Notes under the pieces: model-generated
The model's input: only the letters and a program-made list of their open reading frames with translations
Database searches by the model: none
What the model was told of the DNA's origin: nothing
In this document: positions 53,389 through 63,873 of the stretch, one piece after another
Position numbering within the stretch: the stretch's first letter is position 1
How the letters are laid out: each line of letters begins with the position of its first letter
Position numbers and translations under genes: made by a program
Assembly (NCBI GenBank): GCA_945860295.1
Contig: CAMAQH010000005.1
Location: forward strand, 124,001-188,000
DNA length: 64,000 bases
Direction: 5' to 3'
DNA from: Prosthecobacter debontii
GTDB taxonomy: Bacteria; Verrucomicrobiota; Verrucomicrobiia; Verrucomicrobiales; Verrucomicrobiaceae

Positions 53389-54585
53389 CTACTTTTGCAC
53401 AAACGCAGGAATGATCCGCTGCGGCAGCGTCTTGAGCATTTCGCCCATGCCTTTGTTGTGGGAGGTGACGACGGCGACGAGGTCGAGTCCGGGGAACATG
53501 AAGATGAACTGCCCGCCTGCGCCGCGACCTTGAAAGCTGTGGTAAGTCTTGCCGCCGACGGTGAAATCATCAACCCACCAGAAGAAGCCGTAGTGCTCGT
53601 TGATCTGGCTCGGGGTGGTCGCCCGCACGAGGTAGGCCTCGGGGATGAGTTGATCGCCTTTCCACTTCCCTTTGTTGAGGATGAGTTGGCCGAATTTCAG
53701 CACGTCGCGCGACAGGATGCTGCTTCCGGCGGCGGACTTCGGCAGGCCGCTGATGGCGTGTTCCCAATGATACTGCGTGATGCTCATGCGCCCGAGAAGT
53801 TCTGTTTTGATGAACTCCTCCGCGCCGCCGGGAACAACAGCATTCAGCACTTGCATCGCGATGGCGGTGTCAGGCTCCTGATACTTGAACTCGCGTGGCA
53901 TCGCGGGGATCGGATCGCTGTGTTGCAGATAGGCTTGCAGTTCTCCCAGTCCCTTGAGCTGCGCCGGATTTTTCATCAGCTCTTTCTCCTTCTCCTTCGC
54001 GAGCCGGATGCCGGAACCCATCTGCATGGCCTGCGCGAGCGTGATCGTGTCCGCGCCCGCGACGAGCTTGGTCGTGTCGAGTCCCTTGAGGAAAGAGATC
54101 ACGGGCTTGTCGAGGTCATCCATCTTTAGCAGGTCGAGCTGAATCGCGCGACCCACGGCCAGTGCGGTGTAGGACTTCGTGATCGACATCTGGTAGTGCG
54201 GGAAGTTCGCACGGCCCCGGCGGTAGTAGGATTCAAAGAGCAGCTTGCCGCGATAGCTGATGAGCATGCTGTCCACATGGCCCGCCGTCTCGTCCTCCGC
54301 CGCTGCCGCCAGCTTGTTGGCAAAGGCCTCAATCATCGCGCGGTCACCGCCATCGACACCGAGCTTGCCCACGACGAGCCCGTCCTTTTTGTCCTCCGGA
54401 GCAGCGCTGATGTAGGGCTTTTCCAAGTCTGGCAACTTGGCTTCCAACCGGTAAAGTTTGTCTTTGAGATTCAGCCCCGGCACCTCAGGCGCGAGGCCGT
54501 TGCTGGGCTGCTGGGCGTGGAGAAGAAAGCCGCTACTCACGAGGGTGAGGGTGAGCAGGGAATGGAGTATGGAGTTGAGCTTCAT
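53389..54585 (-). CDS. Serine hydrolase, beta-lactamase class C/CubicO family
   Basis: About 398 residues from ATG 54585 (MKLNSILHSLLTLTLVSSGF, signal peptide). A longer frame opening at 54720 runs into the upstream glycosidase gene, which makes it unlikely. The catalytic SxxK is Ser-Ile-Thr-Lys in YQMSITKSYTALAVGRAI. YRRGRANFPHY precedes it; the YxN-like element reads QEPDTAIAMQVLNA; QGRGAGGQFIFMFPGLDLVA is the C-terminal HxG-like region with Gly replacing His. An esterase or peptidase, in context perhaps a carbohydrate esterase, not an antibiotic resistance enzyme. Last gene of the sigma/FecR block; a duplicate of its N-terminal stretch lies at 63.44-63.51 kb. Confidence 0.9.
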   Translation of the reverse strand: MKLNSILHSLLTLTLVSSGFLLHAQQPSNGLAPEVPGLNLKDKLYRLEAKLPDLEKPYISAAPEDKKDGLVVGKLGVDGGDRAMIEAFANKLAAAAEDETAGHVDSMLISYRGKLLFESYYRRGRANFPHYQMSITKSYTALAVGRAIQLDLLKMDDLDKPVISFLKGLDTTKLVAGADTITLAQAMQMGSGIRLAKEKEKELMKNPAQLKGLGELQAYLQHSDPIPAMPREFKYQEPDTAIAMQVLNAVVPGGAEEFIKTELLGRMSITQYHWEHAISGLPKSAAGSSILSRDVLKFGQLILNKGKWKGDQLIPEAYLVRATTPSQINEHYGFFWWVDDFTVGGKTYHSFQGRGAGGQFIFMFPGLDLVAVVTSHNKGMGEMLKTLPQRIIPAFVQK

Positions 54586-54641
54586 GAGGGTTGTCGCGGG
54601 TTGTGTTGTCAGGTTGTGGTTTGGATTCAAAAGAGTGTCGA

Positions 54642-56282
54642 TCACGGCTTCGTGCTTTCCCAGCCGATGGCTTTGAGCATGGGAGCGATCTCGGGATTGG
54701 CCATGAACAGGCGCCAGCACAGGCCGGTGCGGGCGTTCTCAATCATGGCGATGATTGGTCCCTGGTCGATGGCAAGATACTGATCGGAATACCAGTCGCG
54801 ATTGAGATTGAAGGCATCCTTGAAACCAAACTCGCCCCACAGGCGCTTGCCGTGGGTGAAGTAGAGATGCTTCAAACAGGCGAGCGATTCCGCTGGCGTG
54901 TAAGGCATGGCGCTGATGGCCGCCGTGGGCGCGATGGTGCCGTTGTCGTTCTGGCCAGGGGCACTGTTGTGATACTTGTCAGGTCCCATGCTGGCGGTGA
55001 GTCCCCAGAGCGATTCGCTGTAGCCTTGGTGCTTGCCGGAATTCTCGATGGCGTAGGCTCGATGAATCAGCGTGGTGTTGCGATTGTTCTCGAAGTAATC
55101 GCAGAAGCGGTCGCGCTTGTTGCGTGGGTCGAAGCCGATGAAGGAATACTGCGTAAGGAACAAGGGGCCGCCCATGGGATAGCGCCCGACGGCTTGAGTG
55201 AAACCGTAATACTGCTGACCGTGGACATAATTTTTCGTCCTGGCCCAGCCTTTGTAGTAGCAGTCCGCCGGGATCGGATGCGTGGGCGAAGCAATCGCCA
55301 GCAGGTAGGCGATCATGGCTTCGTTCCAGCCGGCCACCCACGCATTTTTCTGCCAACCAAATTCAGGCGACCAGTGCCAGTAGAGCGTCTTGCTGCCAGG
55401 CGACTTGAGGAACCAATCCCACTCGACGGCTTCCCAAAGGTGGGTGGCTCGCTGCCGTATCTCCGTCTCGACTCCACCCGCTTGATTGAAATACTGCCGC
55501 ACAGCGAGCACGCCCTGCATGAGGAGTGCGGTCTCGACGATGTCCGCGCCGTTGTCATCCGGCGAGAACGGCAGGGTCTTGCCCGTGGTCCCATGAATCC
55601 AATGCGGGAAGGCACCGTGATAGCGATCCGCTTTCTCTTCCAAAAACGCGAGCATCGTTATGACTCGATGGGCCACTTCATTTCGCGGCGCAAAGCCTCG
55701 CTCCGCTCCTACCATCAGGGCAAACAAGCCAAAGCCAGTGCCACCCGTCGCACACGCAACGCCATAGTTGGAGCGCTCGCGGATCAGGCCGCTGCCCGGA
55801 TATGCGTAGTCCCAGAAGTAGCGAAACGTGGCTTCCTGCACCGATGTGAGCAGCTCCGCATCCGTCATCGCGCGACTGCTCGCGGTGACGGTGATGGAAG
55901 GCGCACTCTGCTTGCCATTGGGAAAGAGGCGCGCGACTCGATAGCTGTAAGTGCGGTCATTTGCGCCAATGAAGTCGCTGTAAAAATTCGCGCGATGATC
56001 CGCTGCGATGGCAACAAAAGGACCTTCGGGCCGGTCAGCACGCTCGACCGTGAAACGCTCCCTTCCGGTGGCCACAGGCAGCCAATGCAGGTCGATGCGA
56101 CAGGCATGACCTTTCGCGGTGAGTGTTTGAATGGCATCGGCTCGGCCGGGAGCTGTGCCGTCGTTTGCCTGTGCCTGGATGCCGCAACACGCACACAGCA
56201 TTGCCCAGGCGCAAAGCAACTGTATGACGCACGCACGAATCCACTCAACAGTAGTTTTCTTGAAGAACGTAAGCATCAGCAT
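54642..56282 (-). CDS. GH144-like beta-1,2-glucanase / glycoamylase-like hydrolase
   Basis: 546 residues, exported. An N-terminal fibronectin-like domain (about 45-130: IDLHWLPVATGRERFTVERA, YSYRVARLFPNGKQSA) precedes an alpha6/alpha6 barrel: EATFRYFWDYAYPGSGLIRE, GVACATGGTGFGLFALMVGA, HGAFPHWIHGTTG, VETALLMQGVLAVRQYFNQ, GWNEAMIAYLLAIASP and YGFKDAF-like WGEFGFKDAFNLNRDWYS. These match the glycoamylase-like domain of GH144 and relatives. The enzyme cuts a beta-glucan or similar backbone, probably in the periplasm. It lies between a sulfatase and the serine hydrolase. The exact linkage cannot be told from sequence. Confidence 0.87.
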   Translation of the reverse strand: MLMLTFFKKTTVEWIRACVIQLLCAWAMLCACCGIQAQANDGTAPGRADAIQTLTAKGHACRIDLHWLPVATGRERFTVERADRPEGPFVAIAADHRANFYSDFIGANDRTYSYRVARLFPNGKQSAPSITVTASSRAMTDAELLTSVQEATFRYFWDYAYPGSGLIRERSNYGVACATGGTGFGLFALMVGAERGFAPRNEVAHRVITMLAFLEEKADRYHGAFPHWIHGTTGKTLPFSPDDNGADIVETALLMQGVLAVRQYFNQAGGVETEIRQRATHLWEAVEWDWFLKSPGSKTLYWHWSPEFGWQKNAWVAGWNEAMIAYLLAIASPTHPIPADCYYKGWARTKNYVHGQQYYGFTQAVGRYPMGGPLFLTQYSFIGFDPRNKRDRFCDYFENNRNTTLIHRAYAIENSGKHQGYSESLWGLTASMGPDKYHNSAPGQNDNGTIAPTAAISAMPYTPAESLACLKHLYFTHGKRLWGEFGFKDAFNLNRDWYSDQYLAIDQGPIIAMIENARTGLCWRLFMANPEIAPMLKAIGWESTKP

Positions 56283-56283
56283 C

Positions 56284-57894
56284 TCAATCAGGAGTGGCAG
56301 GCTGACGTTTCTTCTTTGCCACCAGCTTCGGCGGTTCCGGAATCTGATACTGCGATTTTAGTGCGGCCAGTCTTGCTTTAAGCCGCTCCACCTCTTGGGC
56401 GTATTCGGACTTGTCATAGCCGTTGTGCAACTCGTTGGGATCGTCTTTCAGGTCGTAGAATTCCCACGCGTTGTAGTCGTAGAAGGAGATGAGCTTGTAG
56501 CGGTCGTCACGCACACCCATGTGGCGCGGCATGTTGTATTCACCACGGGCCTTCGGCGTTCCGCCATCATAATAAGTGTAGAGGATATCCTTTCGCCAAT
56601 CGGGTGGCGTTGTGCCAGCTAGCAACGGCTGCAAAGGACGTCCGTGAATCTCCTTCGGCACCGCGATTCCGGCAGCGGTGAGCAGCGTCGGAGCCAGATC
56701 AATGTTTTGCACGAGCGCATCAATCCGTGTGCCTGGCTTGATCGTGCCGGGCCAGCGAATCATCAGCGGAAACTTGAAGCTTTCCTCATACATCCAGCGC
56801 TTCTCCGCCCAGCCGTGCTCCCCGGTGAAAAAGCCCTGATCGGAACTGTAGATGACGATGGTGTTCTTGCTGAGACCTGACGCGTCGAGATAGGCAAGGA
56901 TGCGCCCCACATTGCCATCGAGGCCGTCCACGCACCGCACCGTGTCCGCAATGTAGCGCTGGTAGGCGTAGCGAATGCCATCCTTGCCATTGAGCTTTCC
57001 CGCGGCTTTGAGCTTTGCGTATTTGCGGTTGCGCGGATCGTAGGCCTTGTGCCAAACAGCGCGTTGCGCGGGATTCATGTCCTCTAGGAAATGCGGCATC
57101 TTCTTCGGGTTCGCGGCGAGTTCTTCCTGAGTTGGGCCAATGTTGAGGCCGGGGCCGGTCATGCCACTGATTTTCATCCAAGTGTCCGCCACGAAGGGCT
57201 GCCGCGTGGCGTAGTCGTCGAACAACGTCGGAGGTTCCGGGAAAACCACGCCATCATAAGAGGCCATGTCTTTGAGCGCGGGAGTGCGCGGTGTGTGCGG
57301 GGCCTTGAACTGAGCGCAGAGCAGAAAGGGCTTCGATGCGTCGCGCTTCTTCAACCAATCGATGGACTTGTCCGTGATGATGTCGGTCGAGTAGCCTTCG
57401 GTCTTTGATGGGCCGACAGCGCTGACAAATTCCGGATTGTAGTAAGACCCTTGACCGCCGCTGCCAGAGAGCACTTCCCAATGCTGAAACTCATCGGTTG
57501 GGTTGCCCTTCAAATGCCACTTGCCGATGAGCGCAGTCTGGTTCCCAGCCTTGCCAAGCTCGCGTGGATAAACCCATTGTTTGCCATTCCAGTTGGAGCT
57601 GTTGCCCAGGATACCATTGGCGGCACTGTGTTTGCCGGTCAAAATGGAAGCACGGCTCGGGCAACAGATCGAGTTGCCGACAAACGCGCTCGTGAAGATA
57701 CCGCCCTCACTCGCGATCCGGTCCAGATTCGGCGTCTTGTTGATGGAGCCTTCGTAAGCCCCGATGGTCCGCAACGCGTGGTCGTCGCTGAACAAAAACA
57801 GAATGTTCGGCCTCGCCGATTCGGCTTCAGTCGCATGCAATGGCAAAAGCGACGCGAGCACCAATGTGGCGATGAGTGTGAGGATGAGTTTCAT
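56284..57894 (-). CDS. Formylglycine-dependent sulfatase (S1 family)
   Basis: 536 residues, signal peptide KLILTLIATLVLASLLPLHA. NILFLFSDDHALRTIGAYEG gives the metal site; the modification motif is Cys77-Cys-Pro-Ser-Arg (SICCPSRASILTGKHSAANG). GKWHLKGNP, YSSDQGFFTGEHGW and YYDGGTPKARGEYNMPRHMG follow, resembling mucin/heparan sulfatases that act on N-acetylhexosamine sulfates. It starts within the stop of the next sulfatase gene (4-bp overlap) and ends one base from the glycosidase start. Part of the proposed sigma/FecR regulon. Confidence 0.95.
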   Translation of the reverse strand: MKLILTLIATLVLASLLPLHATEAESARPNILFLFSDDHALRTIGAYEGSINKTPNLDRIASEGGIFTSAFVGNSICCPSRASILTGKHSAANGILGNSSNWNGKQWVYPRELGKAGNQTALIGKWHLKGNPTDEFQHWEVLSGSGGQGSYYNPEFVSAVGPSKTEGYSTDIITDKSIDWLKKRDASKPFLLCAQFKAPHTPRTPALKDMASYDGVVFPEPPTLFDDYATRQPFVADTWMKISGMTGPGLNIGPTQEELAANPKKMPHFLEDMNPAQRAVWHKAYDPRNRKYAKLKAAGKLNGKDGIRYAYQRYIADTVRCVDGLDGNVGRILAYLDASGLSKNTIVIYSSDQGFFTGEHGWAEKRWMYEESFKFPLMIRWPGTIKPGTRIDALVQNIDLAPTLLTAAGIAVPKEIHGRPLQPLLAGTTPPDWRKDILYTYYDGGTPKARGEYNMPRHMGVRDDRYKLISFYDYNAWEFYDLKDDPNELHNGYDKSEYAQEVERLKARLAALKSQYQIPEPPKLVAKKKRQPATPD

Positions 57895-59456
57895 TGTTTC
57901 GCGTCCTTCGCTTCTGCTTCCTTCTTCATCGCACGATTGGCCTTCCGCTTTGTCGCCTTGTCATCAGTCGCGGCTGGTTTGGAATCCGGTTCCTCGCCTG
58001 CTTCGGTGGCGGTGCCGCCGGATTTGTCGAGCACTGGGTAGTTGGCCACGGCTTTGGCGAGCTGCGCGGGGTTTTCGCGGACATCGAAGGCGGCCAGGCA
58101 ATGGTCGTGGCTTTCGATCATCCATTGGCGCAGGCGGTCCTGATATTTCTTCACGAGAGACTGCTGCTGCGAATCGTAAATGAGGTTGTTCGTGCATCCA
58201 GGATCTTTTTCCAAGTCATAGAACTCCTGCGGGACACGGAGCCGGAACAGGTCCACGCGAGCTTGGATGGCGGCATCGGTTTTACCGGCTTCTTCCATCG
58301 CGGCGAAGGTAAGGCCTTCGTTGTTGTTCTTGTATTTGAATTTGCCGTCGGAGAAGGCGTTGAAGATGTAGCCGTAGCGCGCGTCTTGCACGCAACGCAT
58401 CGGCTTGGGCGGGCCGCCGATGGTGTAGTCGATCTGGGTGAAGACGTAATCGCGCCCATCCTGCTCGCCTCCTTTGAGGAGCGGGACCATGGAGCGTCCG
58501 TCGAGTCCTTCGGGAATCGGCAGGCCCGTGGCGTCCATGAAGGTAGCGAAGAAATCGACCTCGGAGACGAAGTGCGTCTTGTCCACCGAGCCGGGTTTCG
58601 TGACGCCAGGCCAGCGCATGAGCATCGGCGTTCGGTTGCTCGCGAGATAGGTGTTGGCCTTGGCAAAGGGAAAGGCGGAACCGTTGTCGGTGATGAAGAC
58701 GACGAGCGTGCGACTGGCGAGGCCGGAGTCATCGAGGGCCTGGAGCACGCGCCCCACGGTGTCGTCGAGACGGCGCACGGAGTTGAAGTAATGCGCGTAT
58801 TCCTCGCGGACTTTCGGCAGGTCAGGGAGATAGCTGGGGATGACCATCTCCTCCGGCTTGAAGAGCCGCGACGGGACTTCCTCGCCACTCTTGCCGCGCC
58901 CGTTGGGATCGTGAAACGGGCGATGCGGGTCGTGGGAGTTGACCATGAAGTAGAAGGGTTTGTTCTCCTTCTTACAAAGGGCGAAGAAATCCTGCGCGAA
59001 GCCATGATACTTCGTTGGACTGCGACCTGCGCCGAGTTCGGCGAAGTCATGTTCATAGTCCCACTTGAACGCCGCATCAGGCGTGGAGTGACTCACTTTG
59101 CCGAGAACGCCGGTGAGATACCCCGCCTTCTGGAACGTGCCAAACACTGTGGGGATCGGCTTGCTCAGCTTGTTGAAGCCAAACAAGCCGCTGTTATGCC
59201 CATAGCGCCCCGTAGCGATGATGCTGCGGCTCGGACAGCAGATGGCGTTGTTGACGAAGCCATGCTGAAAGCTGAGGCCCTCGGCAGCGAGCTTGCTGAG
59301 GTTCGGCGTGACACCCGGCACCTTGCCATCCAGGAAGTCCATGGCCTCATAGCCGAGGTCATCGGCGGTGATGAGCAGGACGTTGAGCGGCAACTCAGCG
59401 GCGTGTAGTGCGGCGAACGGCAGGAGACATGCTAGGAGAACAAGGAGCGGTTTCAT
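57891..59456 (-). CDS. Formylglycine-dependent sulfatase (S1 family)
   Basis: 521 residues, signal peptide KPLLVLLACLLPFAALHAA. NVLLITADDLGYEAMDFLDG is the metal site and Cys73-Cys-Pro-Ser-Arg (AICCPSRSIIATGRYGHNSG) the modification motif. GKVSHSTPDAAFKWDYEHDF, NSHDPHRPFHDP and FITDNGSAFPFAKANTYLAS are typical of the N-sulfoglucosamine sulfohydrolase-like group. A Lys/Ala-rich tail (TDDKATKRKANRAMKKEAEA) is unusual and resembles the Lys/Ala segment of the esterase encoded upstream. 35 bases after the esterase gene. Confidence 0.95.
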   Translation of the reverse strand: MKPLLVLLACLLPFAALHAAELPLNVLLITADDLGYEAMDFLDGKVPGVTPNLSKLAAEGLSFQHGFVNNAICCPSRSIIATGRYGHNSGLFGFNKLSKPIPTVFGTFQKAGYLTGVLGKVSHSTPDAAFKWDYEHDFAELGAGRSPTKYHGFAQDFFALCKKENKPFYFMVNSHDPHRPFHDPNGRGKSGEEVPSRLFKPEEMVIPSYLPDLPKVREEYAHYFNSVRRLDDTVGRVLQALDDSGLASRTLVVFITDNGSAFPFAKANTYLASNRTPMLMRWPGVTKPGSVDKTHFVSEVDFFATFMDATGLPIPEGLDGRSMVPLLKGGEQDGRDYVFTQIDYTIGGPPKPMRCVQDARYGYIFNAFSDGKFKYKNNNEGLTFAAMEEAGKTDAAIQARVDLFRLRVPQEFYDLEKDPGCTNNLIYDSQQQSLVKKYQDRLRQWMIESHDHCLAAFDVRENPAQLAKAVANYPVLDKSGGTATEAGEEPDSKPAATDDKATKRKANRAMKKEAEAKDAKQ

Positions 59457-59491: not shown

Positions 59492-61300
59492 TTACTGCGT
59501 CATCTGCGGACGCTCCCAGTCTTTGAAGTTCCTCTTCGCATCGCGGGCTTCGTCAGTCTTTTCGGGTTTCTCCACGCGCACGGCGGGATCGTTGGGATCG
59601 AAGAGCGGCCAGGTGTCGGTGCGGAAGGGTGAGGCGGGGAGGCCTTCCTTGTTGTAGAGCAGATTGCGCTGCGAGGGATTCATCGCCCAGGCGTAGCGGA
59701 CGGCCACGGGAGTCGGCACGTCTTTGGATGAAACGATGACCTTGTTTCCGGCGATCTCGGCGTCCGCCCATTGCCACTTTTTGTCCGCTCCGGCGATGGC
59801 GAAGGTATCCAGCTTGCCCGGCTTCGCGGCCATCATGCCGCTGCCGATGCTGTCGAACTCGAGGGTGATTCTGCTGCCTTCGATCTTCTGGCTGAGGTAG
59901 CGCGGGCCGATGGGGACGATGTCTTTGCCATAAGCTTCTTTGAGCGCGAGATAGGCGTGGCGGATGCCGATAGGCTTCTTGTTTTGCGGATGCAGGGCAA
60001 CAGGATCGCCGCAATCAATGCCCACGGCCATGCCGGTATGCGGCATCTCCATGCTGACGAGCCGCATGGTCTCGCGGTTGACCGCCCAGGTGGCCTCGAA
60101 GCCTTCGACGGGCTGGGTTTGCGGCGCTTCCCAACTGGGCAACTGCGTGAAGAAGAAGGGGAAGTCTTTCGCGACATTGCCGCCGGAGAGCTCATGCCAT
60201 GAAGAGCGGTAGTAGCTGATGAGCCGCTTCAGTTGTTCGCCGTAGGCGACGGCCTGGGGCGCGGTCTTGGAGTTGCGCTCGCCCTGATACCAGATGGCAC
60301 CTTTGATGCCATAAGGTCTGATGGGATAAATCATTCCGTTGAAGATGTGGGCCGGATACTGATGTCCCAAGTCGGCGGGCTTGGTGATCGTGGGCGGTTG
60401 CAGCTCACGCGCCTGGTTCTTCATGGTCTCGCCTGCGGCGATCTTGGCGTTGTAATCAGCGAGTTCGCTTTCGAACTGCTGGAGCGCCTTCTCGCGGGTC
60501 TCGCCCTTCCGGTCCACTTGCAGCTTCGCGCTTTTGTCGCCGTCCGCCTTCTGCATCTTCGATTGTGCGATGTCCTGCTGGACCACCCACGGCATCCAAC
60601 CCTCGATCGGCGTTCCCGCGTAAGCCTGCTGAATGATCCCGACGGGAACATTGAGGGCTAGATGCAGCTTCTTACCGAAGTGATACGCCACGACGGAGGT
60701 CTCAGCGGCCGACTCGGGATTGCAGGGCTTCCATTGATCGAGGAGATCACGTTTCTCCTTCAGCGGCTCATGCCAGTGCTCGCGGGCGGATTTGAATATG
60801 CGGTAGTTCGGCAGATTGACGTTCGCCTCCAGCTCCGCTTCCGCGGAGTTGCCCACCGACCAGCCCATGTTGGACTGCCCCGCGCAGAGCCACACTTCAC
60901 CAATCGCCACGTCCTTGATCTCGATGGTCTTCGAACCCGTGATTTTCAGCGAATGCCCCTTGCCAAACGCGGGTGTTTCCAGCAGGACCTTCCACGCGCC
61001 ATCCGCACCGGCTTGCGTCGAGGCCGTGGCACCCCAACTCGCCGTTACGGTGATGGATTCCTTCGGCTCGGCCCAGCCCCAGATGGTGTTTTTCATGTTC
61101 TGCTGGAGGATCATGTGATCGCCAAACAGGCTCGGCAGCCGAAGGCCTGTCTTCGCCGGCACGGCGATTTCTGATGGTTTCTGCGCTGCTTCCGCAGCCT
61201 TGCGTCTCGCCTGTCTTTTGGCGGCTTTGTCGTCCTCAGCCTTCGCCGTGTAGGACGCAGCCAAGAGAAGGATCAGCGAGAGCGTGGTCAATGTTTTCAT
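59492..61300 (-). CDS. Sialate O-acetylesterase-like esterase (SGNH family)
   Basis: About 602 residues from ATG 61300 (MKTLTTLSLILLLAASYTAK, signal peptide). A charged Lys/Ala stretch (DDKAAKRQARRKAAEAAQK) precedes RLPSLFGDHMILQQ and IWGWAEPKESITVTASW, the beta-domain of the family. The catalytic Ser143 lies in VWLCAGQSNMGWSVG. Further blocks are IQQAYAGTPIEGWMPW, GAIWYQGERNS and GIDCGDPVALHPQNK, the last holding the Asp/His region. It deacetylates sialic acid or another acylated sugar. The start at 61300 leaves a 98-base gap after FecR with a promoter-like motif. A decayed relative is at 46.7-47.0 kb. Confidence 0.93.
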   Translation of the reverse strand: MKTLTTLSLILLLAASYTAKAEDDKAAKRQARRKAAEAAQKPSEIAVPAKTGLRLPSLFGDHMILQQNMKNTIWGWAEPKESITVTASWGATASTQAGADGAWKVLLETPAFGKGHSLKITGSKTIEIKDVAIGEVWLCAGQSNMGWSVGNSAEAELEANVNLPNYRIFKSAREHWHEPLKEKRDLLDQWKPCNPESAAETSVVAYHFGKKLHLALNVPVGIIQQAYAGTPIEGWMPWVVQQDIAQSKMQKADGDKSAKLQVDRKGETREKALQQFESELADYNAKIAAGETMKNQARELQPPTITKPADLGHQYPAHIFNGMIYPIRPYGIKGAIWYQGERNSKTAPQAVAYGEQLKRLISYYRSSWHELSGGNVAKDFPFFFTQLPSWEAPQTQPVEGFEATWAVNRETMRLVSMEMPHTGMAVGIDCGDPVALHPQNKKPIGIRHAYLALKEAYGKDIVPIGPRYLSQKIEGSRITLEFDSIGSGMMAAKPGKLDTFAIAGADKKWQWADAEIAGNKVIVSSKDVPTPVAVRYAWAMNPSQRNLLYNKEGLPASPFRTDTWPLFDPNDPAVRVEKPEKTDEARDAKRNFKDWERPQMTQ

Positions 61301-61323: not shown

Positions 61324-61355
61324 CGAAGTAGGGGCCAACGCGGCCAATGTCACAA
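61324..61355 (-). promoter_or_regulatory. Putative ECF-sigma promoter before the esterase gene
   Basis: On the minus strand TTGTGACA, then 13 bases, then CCCCTACTTCG, ending 23 bases before ATG 61300. The same two blocks at the same spacing occur before the sigma gene (63377-63408) and I saw no third copy in the window. This would let the local sigma factor transcribe esterase, sulfatases, glycosidase and serine hydrolase separately from sigma-fecR. Confidence 0.7.
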
Positions 61356-61398
61356 CGGCGGCGGAAATAGCGGAAGAAAACCAGCGCGCAGCCAATCG

Positions 61399-62808
61399 TC
61401 ACCGCACCATCGGTGGATCAGACACATCCACGATGACGCGGATTTGAACCAATCCATGCTCGATGCCCTGTTCCACCTGCCAGTCGAGCTTGAGCGTCCG
61501 GCGGTCCTGACTCAGGGAGAGGCGGTCGCCGTCCTTGAGTGATCGTCCCCCGCCTGACGAATAGACGAACCTCTTTTTGCCGAGCACTTCGTCGGAAGCC
61601 GTGAGTTGATCTCCATCTGCGATGATGGCGATGATCGGACGGTCAAAGCTCACTTCGCCGACGAAACGTATGGGATTGGAAATGGCGGCACCCTCCGCCT
61701 GTGGCGGGCGGTATTGGACGAGATAGGTGTTCACGCGCCTCTTTTCAGGATGCAGCGTCTCCTGGCGACCGATGATCTCCTCCGGCCCGTAGTCTCCCGG
61801 TTCGGTGAGGCTCACGGTGAAATCCGTCCTCAGCTTGGTCGCAAATCGTTCTGGGAAAATCACGAGGCTGTCGGCATCCGTGACACCCGCCGGATTCAGA
61901 CCTGGCTGCGGAGAAGCGAAGCGAATCTTGCCACCCGTGTTCACGACGCCAAACAAGACCTCCGAGCCGCGAAATGCGCGCGTGTTGAACTTCCGAGGCA
62001 TGAGCGCACCCGAGCCTTCGTTGACCGACACCTCGCTACCTTCCTCGATGACCTTCTCCTCGCGACTCACGAGCGAAGTCACCGCGACCAGGCCCTCATA
62101 GACTGCCACATCCGTCGCACCATTCGTTCCTACCGAGACGCCGAAGGTGGTGCCAAGATCCACGACCTTCGCCCGCTCGGTGTGGACCTGCAATCCAATG
62201 CCTTCTGGCGGGACATTCGCGGTGAGCTTTCCCGAATGAAGCCGGGTCTCACCGGGGCCGATGAGCTCCAGATCCGCCGGACCTTCCAGAGTTAATCGAA
62301 CGTCCTTGGCGAAATCGAGCCGCACCACGCCTGCGGCCAGCCTCAGGTGACCTTTCCCGACTCGCTCACCCGAAGCGAGCTTCCGATCACCCGACCAAGT
62401 GGCATCGATCTGATGCGCGACCGTGGCGAGCGACTCGTCTGCCCTCGGCAAACTCCACATCACGAACCATCCCAGCGCGATCACCGCAGCAATCGCCGCC
62501 GCCTTTTGCATCACCGAATACCAACGCAAGCCAGGCTTCGATGGTCTCAGCGCAGACAGCACCGCAGCGGAGACATCGCGTGAACTCGTGCTGGGAAGAA
62601 TGCACTGCATCACCTCACTCACCCGGCGATCTGCTTCATCCAGCAAAGGAAGACCAAGCAGAGTGTTCTGAATGCGAAGCTCATCCAGAAACCGCGCCTT
62701 CAAATCCGCATCCGCAGAGAAGGCCGTCAGCAACTCCCGCGACGCCTCCTCATCGAGCGTTCCGTCCGCATAGCCTTCCAGCAGTTCGTAGAATCGCTCG
62801 TCGTTCAT
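61399..62808 (-). CDS. FecR-like anti-sigma/transmembrane sensor
   Basis: 469 residues from ATG 62808 (MNDERFYELLEGYADGTLDE), overlapping the sigma stop by 4 bp. A cytoplasmic N-terminal domain of about 90 residues (EEASRELLTAFSADADLKAR) resembles anti-sigma domains. One membrane helix follows (about 97-117, AAAIAAVIALGWFVMWSLP). The FecR domain is about 145-270 (LASGERVGKGHLRLAAGVVR, LDFAKDVRLTLEGPADLELI, AKVVDLGTTFGVSVGT, VAVYEGLVAV). The periplasmic C-terminal 200 residues (FPERFATKLRTDFTVSLTEP, DVSDPPMVR) are of unknown type. It probably holds the sigma factor inactive until a periplasmic signal. Confidence 0.93.
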   Translation of the reverse strand: MNDERFYELLEGYADGTLDEEASRELLTAFSADADLKARFLDELRIQNTLLGLPLLDEADRRVSEVMQCILPSTSSRDVSAAVLSALRPSKPGLRWYSVMQKAAAIAAVIALGWFVMWSLPRADESLATVAHQIDATWSGDRKLASGERVGKGHLRLAAGVVRLDFAKDVRLTLEGPADLELIGPGETRLHSGKLTANVPPEGIGLQVHTERAKVVDLGTTFGVSVGTNGATDVAVYEGLVAVTSLVSREEKVIEEGSEVSVNEGSGALMPRKFNTRAFRGSEVLFGVVNTGGKIRFASPQPGLNPAGVTDADSLVIFPERFATKLRTDFTVSLTEPGDYGPEEIIGRQETLHPEKRRVNTYLVQYRPPQAEGAAISNPIRFVGEVSFDRPIIAIIADGDQLTASDEVLGKKRFVYSSGGGRSLKDGDRLSLSQDRRTLKLDWQVEQGIEHGLVQIRVIVDVSDPPMVR

Positions 62809-63368
62809 GACGCTCCTCCCGTTTGCGCTGACCGCTCCATGCACTCTCGCAGCGTCTTGCGGACGCGGTTCAAAGTCGTCGTCACCCAGCTCACGGTGCG
62901 CTGCTTCTGCTCCGCGATCTCCTTGCAGCTTCGCTTCTTGAAATAGCGGAGCGCCACCAGATCCGACGCCTCGCGCCCCAGCTTGCCCACGCAGTCCCGC
63001 AGCCCGGCCAATTGATCCAAGCGGAAATCTGGCTCCATGTCCTCTGTCACTGCCGTGGCAATCTCGACCTCCAACTGTTCGCGATAGTTCGACAGGTTGT
63101 TCGCCTCCCGCCGCTTCTTCTCCAGCTCGGTGAGGATCAAATATCGGCACGTCACGCAAAGCCACACGCCGAACTCCTCGTCCGCACGAAAATCCGCCAG
63201 ACGCTGATAAGCGCGGATGAAAGTGAGCTGCACCACCTCCTCCGCCAGCGTCCAATCACTCAGCCGCCGCAGCGCATACCCCAGCAGCATGTCCTGATGC
63301 TCCCGAACGACCTCGCCATAAGCGTCGAGATCGCCATCTAAGATGCGTTGTTGAGTGAATGGGTTCAT
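62805..63368 (-). CDS. ECF-type RNA polymerase sigma factor
   Basis: 187 residues. Region 2 (about 20-85): HQDMLLGYALRRLSDWTLAE, EVVQLTFIRAYQRLADFRAD, FGVWLCVTCRYLILTELEK. Region 4 (about 125-175): LAGLRDCVGKLGREASDLVA, LRYFKKRSCKEIAEQKQRTV, SWVTTTLNRVRKTLRECM. It belongs with the Rhodopirellula/Verrucomicrobium ECF sigma type usually found with FecR. A promoter-like motif with its -10 block eight bases before the start codon implies autoregulation and a very short or absent leader. Coupled to fecR by a 4-bp overlap. Confidence 0.95.
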   Translation of the reverse strand: MNPFTQQRILDGDLDAYGEVVREHQDMLLGYALRRLSDWTLAEEVVQLTFIRAYQRLADFRADEEFGVWLCVTCRYLILTELEKKRREANNLSNYREQLEVEIATAVTEDMEPDFRLDQLAGLRDCVGKLGREASDLVALRYFKKRSCKEIAEQKQRTVSWVTTTLNRVRKTLRECMERSAQTGGAS

Positions 63369-63376
63369 GCCGTCTC

Positions 63377-63408
63377 CGAAGTAGGGGCTGGAGTGAACTT
63401 TGTCACAA
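63377..63408 (-). promoter_or_regulatory. Putative autoregulatory ECF promoter before the sigma gene
   Basis: Minus-strand TTGTGACA (63408-63401), 13-base spacer, CCCCTACTTCG (63387-63377). Eight bases separate it from the ATG at 63368, so transcription would begin at or just before the start codon (leaderless). Identical blocks and spacing precede the esterase gene. Confidence 0.7.
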
Positions 63409-63440: not shown

Positions 63441-63510
63441 CAGGCTTTTCCAAGTCCGGCAACTTGGATTCCAAATGGTAAAGCTTGTCCTGCAGGTTCA
63501 GCCCCCAAGA
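63441..63510 (-). pseudogene. Duplicate scrap of the serine hydrolase gene
   Basis: The minus strand reads SWGLNLQDKLYHLESKLPDL then EKP; the intact hydrolase has PGLNLKDKLYRLEAKLPDL and EKP just after its signal peptide. DNA identity over about 65 bases is high but not perfect, so the copy is not recent. Neither its start nor its catalytic part is present. Confidence 0.7.
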
Positions 63511-63534
63511 GTTCCACATCAAGACCCGAGTCCT

Positions 63535-63684
63535 CCCGCCGTGCGCCTCCTCAATGAAACCAGCCCCACCGCCACCGAGATCGCCAGCAAAACCGGCTTC
63601 GTCGATGCCAGCAGCTTCGCCGAACAATTCAAACACCGCACAGGTATGCCCCCCACCGAGTATCGGGCGCGACAGGCAGTCTAG
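63535..63684 (+). pseudogene. C-terminal scrap of an AraC-family regulator
   Basis: Reading + gives RLLNETSPTATEIASKTGFV, then DASSFAEQFKHRTGMPPTEY and RARQAV, stop. This is the second helix-turn-helix of an AraC DNA-binding domain (IA..TGF.D.S.F...FK..TG..P.EYR). No start or N-terminal domain is attached; the upstream bases are the serine hydrolase scrap. It is on the same strand as the AraC N-terminal scrap at 53.0 kb. Confidence 0.8.
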
Positions 63685-63721
63685 GCACCGTGGTCCATCC
63701 ATCCATCGACCGACAGATTAA

Positions 63722-63873
63722 GCCGCCTTTGCTCCTGCCGATGGCTTTCCAGCTGATGCCACTCTAACGAGCCAGGGTGGACGTTGCTCAAGCCCATCGC
63801 TTCCCGGAGTTTCTGCAAGCGCCCCGGCAGCAGCTCGGGGTTCGGGGATGTTTTGCTCCGATGGTTGTTTCAT
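63722..63873 (-). pseudogene. Frameshifted scrap of an XRE-type regulator
   Basis: ATG 63873 opens KQPSEQNIPEP; a shift then gives PELLPGRLQKLREAMGLSNV, the start of a Cro/CI helix-turn-helix like that at 53.1-53.3 kb (there ERLPRRLQELRERCGLSKYG). The DNA of the two scraps is clearly related around CTGCAAACGTCTCGGCAG-like bases. Homology stops after GLSN. Not functional. Confidence 0.6.

Follow-up and report, generated by a model that had tools for sequence, protein, structure and literature searches.

A two-block motif as the probable promoter of an ECF sigma factor-FecR pair and of sulfated-glycan enzyme genes in Verrucomicrobiota

The window analysed here is a stretch of 64,000 nucleotides from a Prosthecobacter debontii assembly (GCA_945860295.1, contig CAMAQH010000005.1, positions 124,001 to 188,000). 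Near its end, the minus strand encodes an ECF sigma factor, a FecR-type protein and a series of enzymes, with a two-block motif preceding both the sigma gene and the first enzyme gene. The features of the locus are the following:

63401..63407, minus strand: putative -35 element TGTGACA of the sigma-fecR promoter
63377..63387, minus strand: putative -10 block CCCCTACTTCG of the sigma-fecR promoter, with CTAC, 16 bp from the -35 element, as the probable -10
63373, minus strand: predicted transcription start (A) of sigma-fecR, 8 bp after CTAC, implying a leader of 5 bases
62805..63368, minus strand: ECF sigma factor, 187 aa (PF04542, E 1.8e-12)
61399..62808, minus strand: FecR-type protein, probable anti-sigma factor, 469 aa (PF04773, E 4e-05)
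61348..61354, minus strand: putative -35 element TGTGACA of the esterase-operon promoter
61324..61334, minus strand: putative -10 block CCCCTACTTCG of the esterase-operon promoter
61320, minus strand: predicted transcription start (A) of the esterase operon, implying a 20-base leader to the ATG at 61300
59492..61300, minus strand: SASA-type carbohydrate acetylesterase, 602 aa, first gene of the proposed target unit (PF03629, E 3.2e-15)
57891..59456, minus strand: sulfatase A (PF00884)
56284..57894, minus strand: sulfatase B (PF00884 and PF16347)
54642..56282, minus strand: PF10091 'glycoamylase' protein (E 4.3e-74)
53389..54720, minus strand (frame as listed; start likely near 54585): beta-lactamase-fold serine hydrolase (PF00144)

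ECF sigma factors (group IV of the sigma-70 family) contain only sigma-70 regions 2 and 4 and have a size of about 20 kDa. The window sigma matched PF04542 above cut-off (residues 21-87) and TIGR02937 with 67.5 bits (cut-off 42.9), and PF08281 at residues 123-173 with 22.1 bits against a cut-off of 25.7 (E 1.2e-4). SigW (5wuq) was its best PDB match in a profile search. The top NCBIfam model was TIGR02989 (residues 17-177, E 2.8e-32), at 111.8 bits and hence under the curated cut-off of 124.55; the protein can therefore be described as a divergent relative of the TIGR02989 sigmas (Rhodopirellula/Verrucomicrobium family), for which this is the best, if sub-cut-off, model. Both features that define an ECF sigma factor were found: the domain content and, as predicted from sequence, a promoter of its own gene whose -35 and -10 elements are separated by about 16 bp.

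The fecR start codon overlaps the sigma stop codon (ATGA). The FecR domain match spans residues 188-241 and scores 24.4 bits, with a cut-off of 24. N-terminal helices, including a hydrophobic one at about residues 102-115, were present in the full-length model, which is of low confidence (pLDDT 50.6). The C-terminal 157 residues are conserved (mean column identity of 82% in nine sequences) and were modelled as a beta-rich domain with a pLDDT of 78, the other four models lying at 50-57. Foldseek searches with this C-terminal model returned no match at E <= 0.001, and the best Z obtained with VIA-align was 5.5, which may mean just a common arrangement. Family resemblance suggests that the FecR-type protein would gate the window sigma.

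The esterase starts at the ATG at 61300, a correction to the original prediction, and is followed at close spacing by the two sulfatases, the PF10091 protein and the serine hydrolase. The original prediction had given the PF10091 protein the candidate label GH144. The five enzyme genes are predicted to be carried by one transcript.

Several possible remnants and repeats were observed around the locus. A 63-bp segment upstream of sigma (63443-63505) is 86% identical to 54416-54478, near the start of the serine hydrolase gene, and, read as LNLQDKLYHLESKLPDLEKP, matches the hydrolase; this segment could be either a dispersed repeat or what is left of a gene. An open frame on the plus strand (63500-63684) has an end resembling an AraC-type DNA-binding segment and is probably a gene remnant. 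Farther upstream, a stretch of some 110 bp (63716-63826) recurs at 86% identity elsewhere on the contig of loci L040 and L071, besides the matching copy next to sigma, and is possibly a repeat element of the genus. A terminator-like hairpin was also seen at the end of fecR (61386-61407, minus strand), just ahead of the second promoter; the region holds five terminator-like sites, compared with 2.2 +/- 1.8 in shuffled sequences, which is possibly due to chance.

The original prediction rested on two exact copies of TTGTGACA-N13-CCCCTACTTCG, on the same strand and with an identical spacer length, and both were recovered without mismatches, at 63377-63408 (minus strand) before the sigma gene and at 61324-61355 (minus strand) before the esterase gene. 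They end 8 bases before the sigma ATG and 23 bases before the esterase ATG, and they were the only two matches when the window was scanned with up to three mismatches. In 100 dinucleotide shuffles of the window the mean number of matches was 0.01, and no shuffle contained two. The two copies share 19/19 block bases, 4/13 spacer bases and 0/10 upstream bases, bearing out the claim that their spacers are unrelated. Since the blocks are alike and the spacer and upstream bases are not, the pair is no plain duplication.

The absence of a third copy, which had been noted for the window, also held genome-wide. The source genome comprises 4,676,447 bases in 75 contigs and is 95% complete; a scan that allowed up to 3/19 mismatches returned one additional match, on contig 32 (L003). 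All three of its mismatches fall in the -35 block and no cluster gene lies behind it, so it was rejected as a third copy.

Orthologues of the window sigma were detected in 9/68 genomes of the family at E <= 1e-30, in 13/288 genomes of the order at E <= 1e-25 and in 2/387 genomes in a search of the phylum, the second at 40% identity; all three counts include the source genome. A genome collection provided 17 sigma loci, several of which are the same contigs as in other genomes searched. We counted 20 distinct orthologous sigma genes with the start present, 53-100% identical and two of them partial at contig ends; loci L037, where the sigma start is missing, and L087, at 40% identity, were excluded. 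The motif was expected before orthologous sigma genes, and it lies directly upstream of 17/20, with up to a few mismatches. Two others (G073 and G151) are located inside an operon headed by the motif, and the contig of the last one (G117, L084) begins within the preceding sulfatase, so that the operon head is missing. In G512, a 40% identical sigma followed by a VWA-type protein is preceded by TGTGACG-16-CTAT, which is suggestive only and was left uncounted.

The core TGTGACA-N14/15-CCCTACT was then scanned in all 68 family genomes, with the reversed pattern as control. We identified 26 exact sites in 12/68 genomes and none for the reversed control in the 68. The core was present in 9/9 genomes with a sigma hit and in 3/59 of the others (Fisher p 4.5e-9, a value that overstates independence because the genomes are related). 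Among these three, G032 shows 24 codons of sigma before its contig runs out, while both G049 and G057 carry a promoter followed by a sigma start joined to a fecR end, which corresponds to a deletion scar. The stretches concerned, with the promoter kept, are L072:8067-8098 in G049 and L070:387-418 and L069:8663-8946 in G057, where sulfatase A, behind its own motif, is likewise reduced to its first 69 residues.

A motif at random positions in the genomes would have spoken against the promoter reading; instead, all 26 exact sites precede sigma (10), a sigma-fecR scar (2), the esterase (8), a PF10091 gene (3), sulfatase A (2) or a 69-residue sulfatase A remnant in G057 (L069). In a separate scan of 16 genomes (N14 only), 31/31 exact sites were on the same strand as, and directly before, sigma, fecR, a gene of a cluster family or a remnant; G117 returned no site because its contig is cut. 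Allowing one mismatch produced 10 further sites, against 26 for the reversed control (up to one mismatch), and weaker sites are thus indistinguishable from chance. Of the four one-mismatch sites whose surroundings were viewed, one (in G073) precedes the esterase, and the three at L094, L095 and L097, which precede no cluster gene, were discarded. The enzymes show a parallel distribution: close relatives (E <= 1e-150) of the esterase occur in 7/68 family genomes and those of sulfatase A in 6/68, all among the nine sigma genomes, the sulfatase A remnant of G057, below the E threshold, being the one known exception.

This distribution bears on whether the motif could be read by another of the ECF sigma factors that the genome encodes, with the window sigma as just one of the targets. 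The source genome does encode 10 further sigma-like matches, 21-31% identical to the window sigma. However, the exact core was found in 0/56 genomes lacking a window-type sigma or its pieces, even though these genomes hold many other ECF candidates (7 to 44 each in a first-look count), and at up to three mismatches the contigs of the 10 paralogues contained no motif besides the window pair. Upstream bases were viewed by eye for 9/10 paralogues (L009 has no usable frame). We consider this reading very unlikely, and infer from the sequences that the window sigma itself would bind the motif.

To describe the anatomy of the putative promoter, we tabulated 43 sites from 26 segments in 21 genomes or records. 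The segments were chosen for holding sigma or the motif, and the table is accordingly distinct from the unbiased scans (source genome, 68-genome exact core and 16-genome scan). Two sites had been dropped before this count (L003, with three mismatches, and L097, with four), neither of which precedes a cluster gene, as had duplicates of contigs already included (L030, L040, L074-L077 and L083). The spacing was 13 in 42/43 sites and 14 in the other, these being the two spacings sought; a wider search from 11 to 16 gave, at other spacings, shifted readings of the same sites or sites with four mismatches.

TGTGAC and CCCTAC are invariant in the 36 distinct sites with spacing 13, where block 1 carries a mean information of 1.83 bits and block 2 one of 1.56, falling to 0.67 in the spacer and 0.33 in the 10 upstream bases. 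The motif as originally described is exact in the window; relatives conserve less of it, TGTGAC(A)...CCCTAC(T), with a variable final TCG. TGTGACA and CTAC, 16 bp apart, co-occur in 40/43 sites, and the remaining three have one changed core base. An A is found 8 bp past CTAC in 34/37 distinct sites. This is about where a transcript would be expected to start, and the conserved A is accordingly read as the likely transcript start. In front of the G151 serine hydrolase it coincides with the first base of the ATG, which predicts an mRNA with no leader.

Two blocks at a fixed distance can also constitute a protein-binding site, and the motif might be the operator of a separate DNA-binding activator or repressor, which could be co-inherited with the cassette, instead of the promoter of the sigma. 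The blocks, however, form no palindrome and do not repeat each other, they are oriented alike in all 43 sites, block 2 being the one closer to the start codon, and the spacing suits an ECF -35/-10 pair. Moreover, the sigma-FecR pair was the only regulator co-inherited with the motif that we noticed in a non-systematic look. These observations make a separate regulator improbable, and favour a promoter read by the sigma.

The motif was also seen to accompany the genes through rearrangement. In G047 (L073) the cluster is broken up and four copies precede sigma, a PF10091 gene, the esterase and sulfatase A, the latter having its own copy here, apart from the esterase, as it does in G055, where it resides on a separate contig (L068). 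The order in G073 (L038/L083) is sulfatase B, sulfatase A, sigma, fecR and esterase, with copies directly before sulfatase B and before the esterase, and in G175 (L085) copies precede sigma and, directly, sulfatase B. G151 presents copies before the sulfatase heading the sigma operon and before fecR (L082), and an exact core mid-way in a different 56-kb contig (L096), where the gene behind it encodes a serine hydrolase sharing 55% identity with the window enzyme. The locus of G056 extends over two short contigs, one of which has a second, partial sigma.

Spacers vary in their likeness within genomes. Those of G151 share 2/13 bases. In G055 the sigma spacer shares 10-11/13 bases with the target spacers, and those of the esterase and sulfatase A share 10/13; sigma and target spacers of G056 share 8/13, and the target-promoter spacers of G047 share 7-12/13. 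The similar spacers in G055 and G056 indicate that promoter copying occurred there, and hence that spacer divergence is not universal.

The copying evident in G047 and G055 could be taken to mean that the sites are recent copies of one leader sequence, or a housekeeping promoter, with no dedicated sigma involved. In the window, nonetheless, full identity of the blocks contrasts with the dissimilarity of the spacers and upstream bases, and no sigma-70-like promoter was found between 61200 and 63900. In another family, where the sigmas show 53-61% identity and the genes stand in a different order, the core is likewise retained, as it is with the dissimilar spacers of G151. We regard such an origin as extremely unlikely when set against a promoter specific to the sigma.

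Almost the same sigma-fecR sequence was found in two genera. The segment corresponding to window positions 61399-63408 is 99.65% identical between the source genome and G008, from another genus, and 99.15% identical between G007, of the same genus as G008, and G053, of the window's genus (the loci compared with the window being L024 and L032/L031). The rpoB genes of G007 and G008 are 75-79% identical to those of five genomes of the window's genus; rpoB was sought in the source genome and not found. The contigs involved in G007 and G008 are short (5.2 and 15.3 kb), and the near-identity reflects either transfer or misbinned short contigs; we make no claim of transfer. Sigma loci of this type were also observed in records titled Klebsiella, Acidobacteria, Akkermansia and Chthoniobacter (L029, L033, L035 and L039), at least some of which are likely mislabelled or mixed assemblies.

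A tentative reading, to which we give somewhat less than an even chance, is that the regulon is portable and self-contained: sigma, FecR and the sigma-specific promoters would travel together among Verrucomicrobiota, each reshuffled or relocated enzyme gene keeping or gaining a promoter copy. If so, the enzyme set would remain under a single switch in each new setting.

FecI-FecR cell-surface signalling and the ECF/anti-sigma switches of Bacteroides glycan loci pair an ECF sigma with a membrane protein that carries a FecR domain, in the neighbourhood of carbohydrate genes. The window likewise has an ECF sigma and a probable FecR-type partner next to carbohydrate genes; in contrast to those systems, its genes encode an esterase, sulfatases and a PF10091 enzyme, and no TonB-dependent transducer was found among the 10 window proteins scanned.

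For the promoter, the closest known systems are autoregulated ECF sigma factors in general, for example ECF41, for which TGTCACA and CGTC are reported at a separation of 16 +/- 1 bp (PMC3426412). ECF41 and the window have in common a two-part motif, its elements 16 bp apart, upstream of the sigma gene and of adjacent targets, and in some ECF41 loci, as in G073 and G151 here, sigma lies within the target operon and has no copy of its own. The window elements differ in the central base of the -35 (TGTGACA) and in the -10 (CTAC), and neither TGTCACA nor CGTC was found among the 43 sites. Unlike ECF41, the 187-aa window sigma lacks a C-terminal extension, with no Pfam domain past region 4, which ends at residue 173, and has a FecR partner.

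We conclude, with a probability of about 0.9, that the ECF sigma of the locus reads the two-block motif as its promoter, which would define an autoregulated sigma/FecR regulon for sulfated-glycan enzymes. The two-unit autoregulated regulon originally proposed is supported by co-inheritance, by placement before the same gene families and by ECF-like geometry, and it is co-inheritance and placement that make the support for the sigma reading strong. Under the proposed mechanism, region 4 of sigma would recognise TGTGACA as the -35 and region 2 would recognise CTAC, within CCCTACT and 16 bp on, as the -10, with transcription beginning 8 bp past CTAC, at the conserved A. The motif before sigma would drive sigma-fecR, resulting in autoregulation through a nearly leaderless mRNA, and the other would drive the esterase, sulfatase, sulfatase, PF10091 and serine hydrolase genes. 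The FecR protein would sit in the membrane and keep sigma inactive there until a periplasmic signal, probably a glycan product, released it, and both units would be switched on together.

ECF sigmas that regulate their own expression and have a FecR partner next to catabolic genes are a known kind of system; what appears to be new is the well-defined promoter specificity. The literature, to the extent that it was available, provided no account of this motif, and a predicted motif for the ECF group may stand in the reclassification (doi 10.1093/nar/gkaa1229) or its database. Titles and abstract openings likewise gave no account of promoters read by such sigmas in Verrucomicrobiota. Genomes of this family carry many sulfatase-like genes and ECF candidates in first-look counts, and comparative evidence ties one of these sigmas to an exact promoter and to its target families. 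This makes regulon prediction possible in uncultured genomes, and the conserved A, together with the 5-base sigma leader, predicts leaderless or near-leaderless mRNAs. The sigma and its putative promoter also constitute a candidate orthogonal pair, amenable to a defined reporter test.
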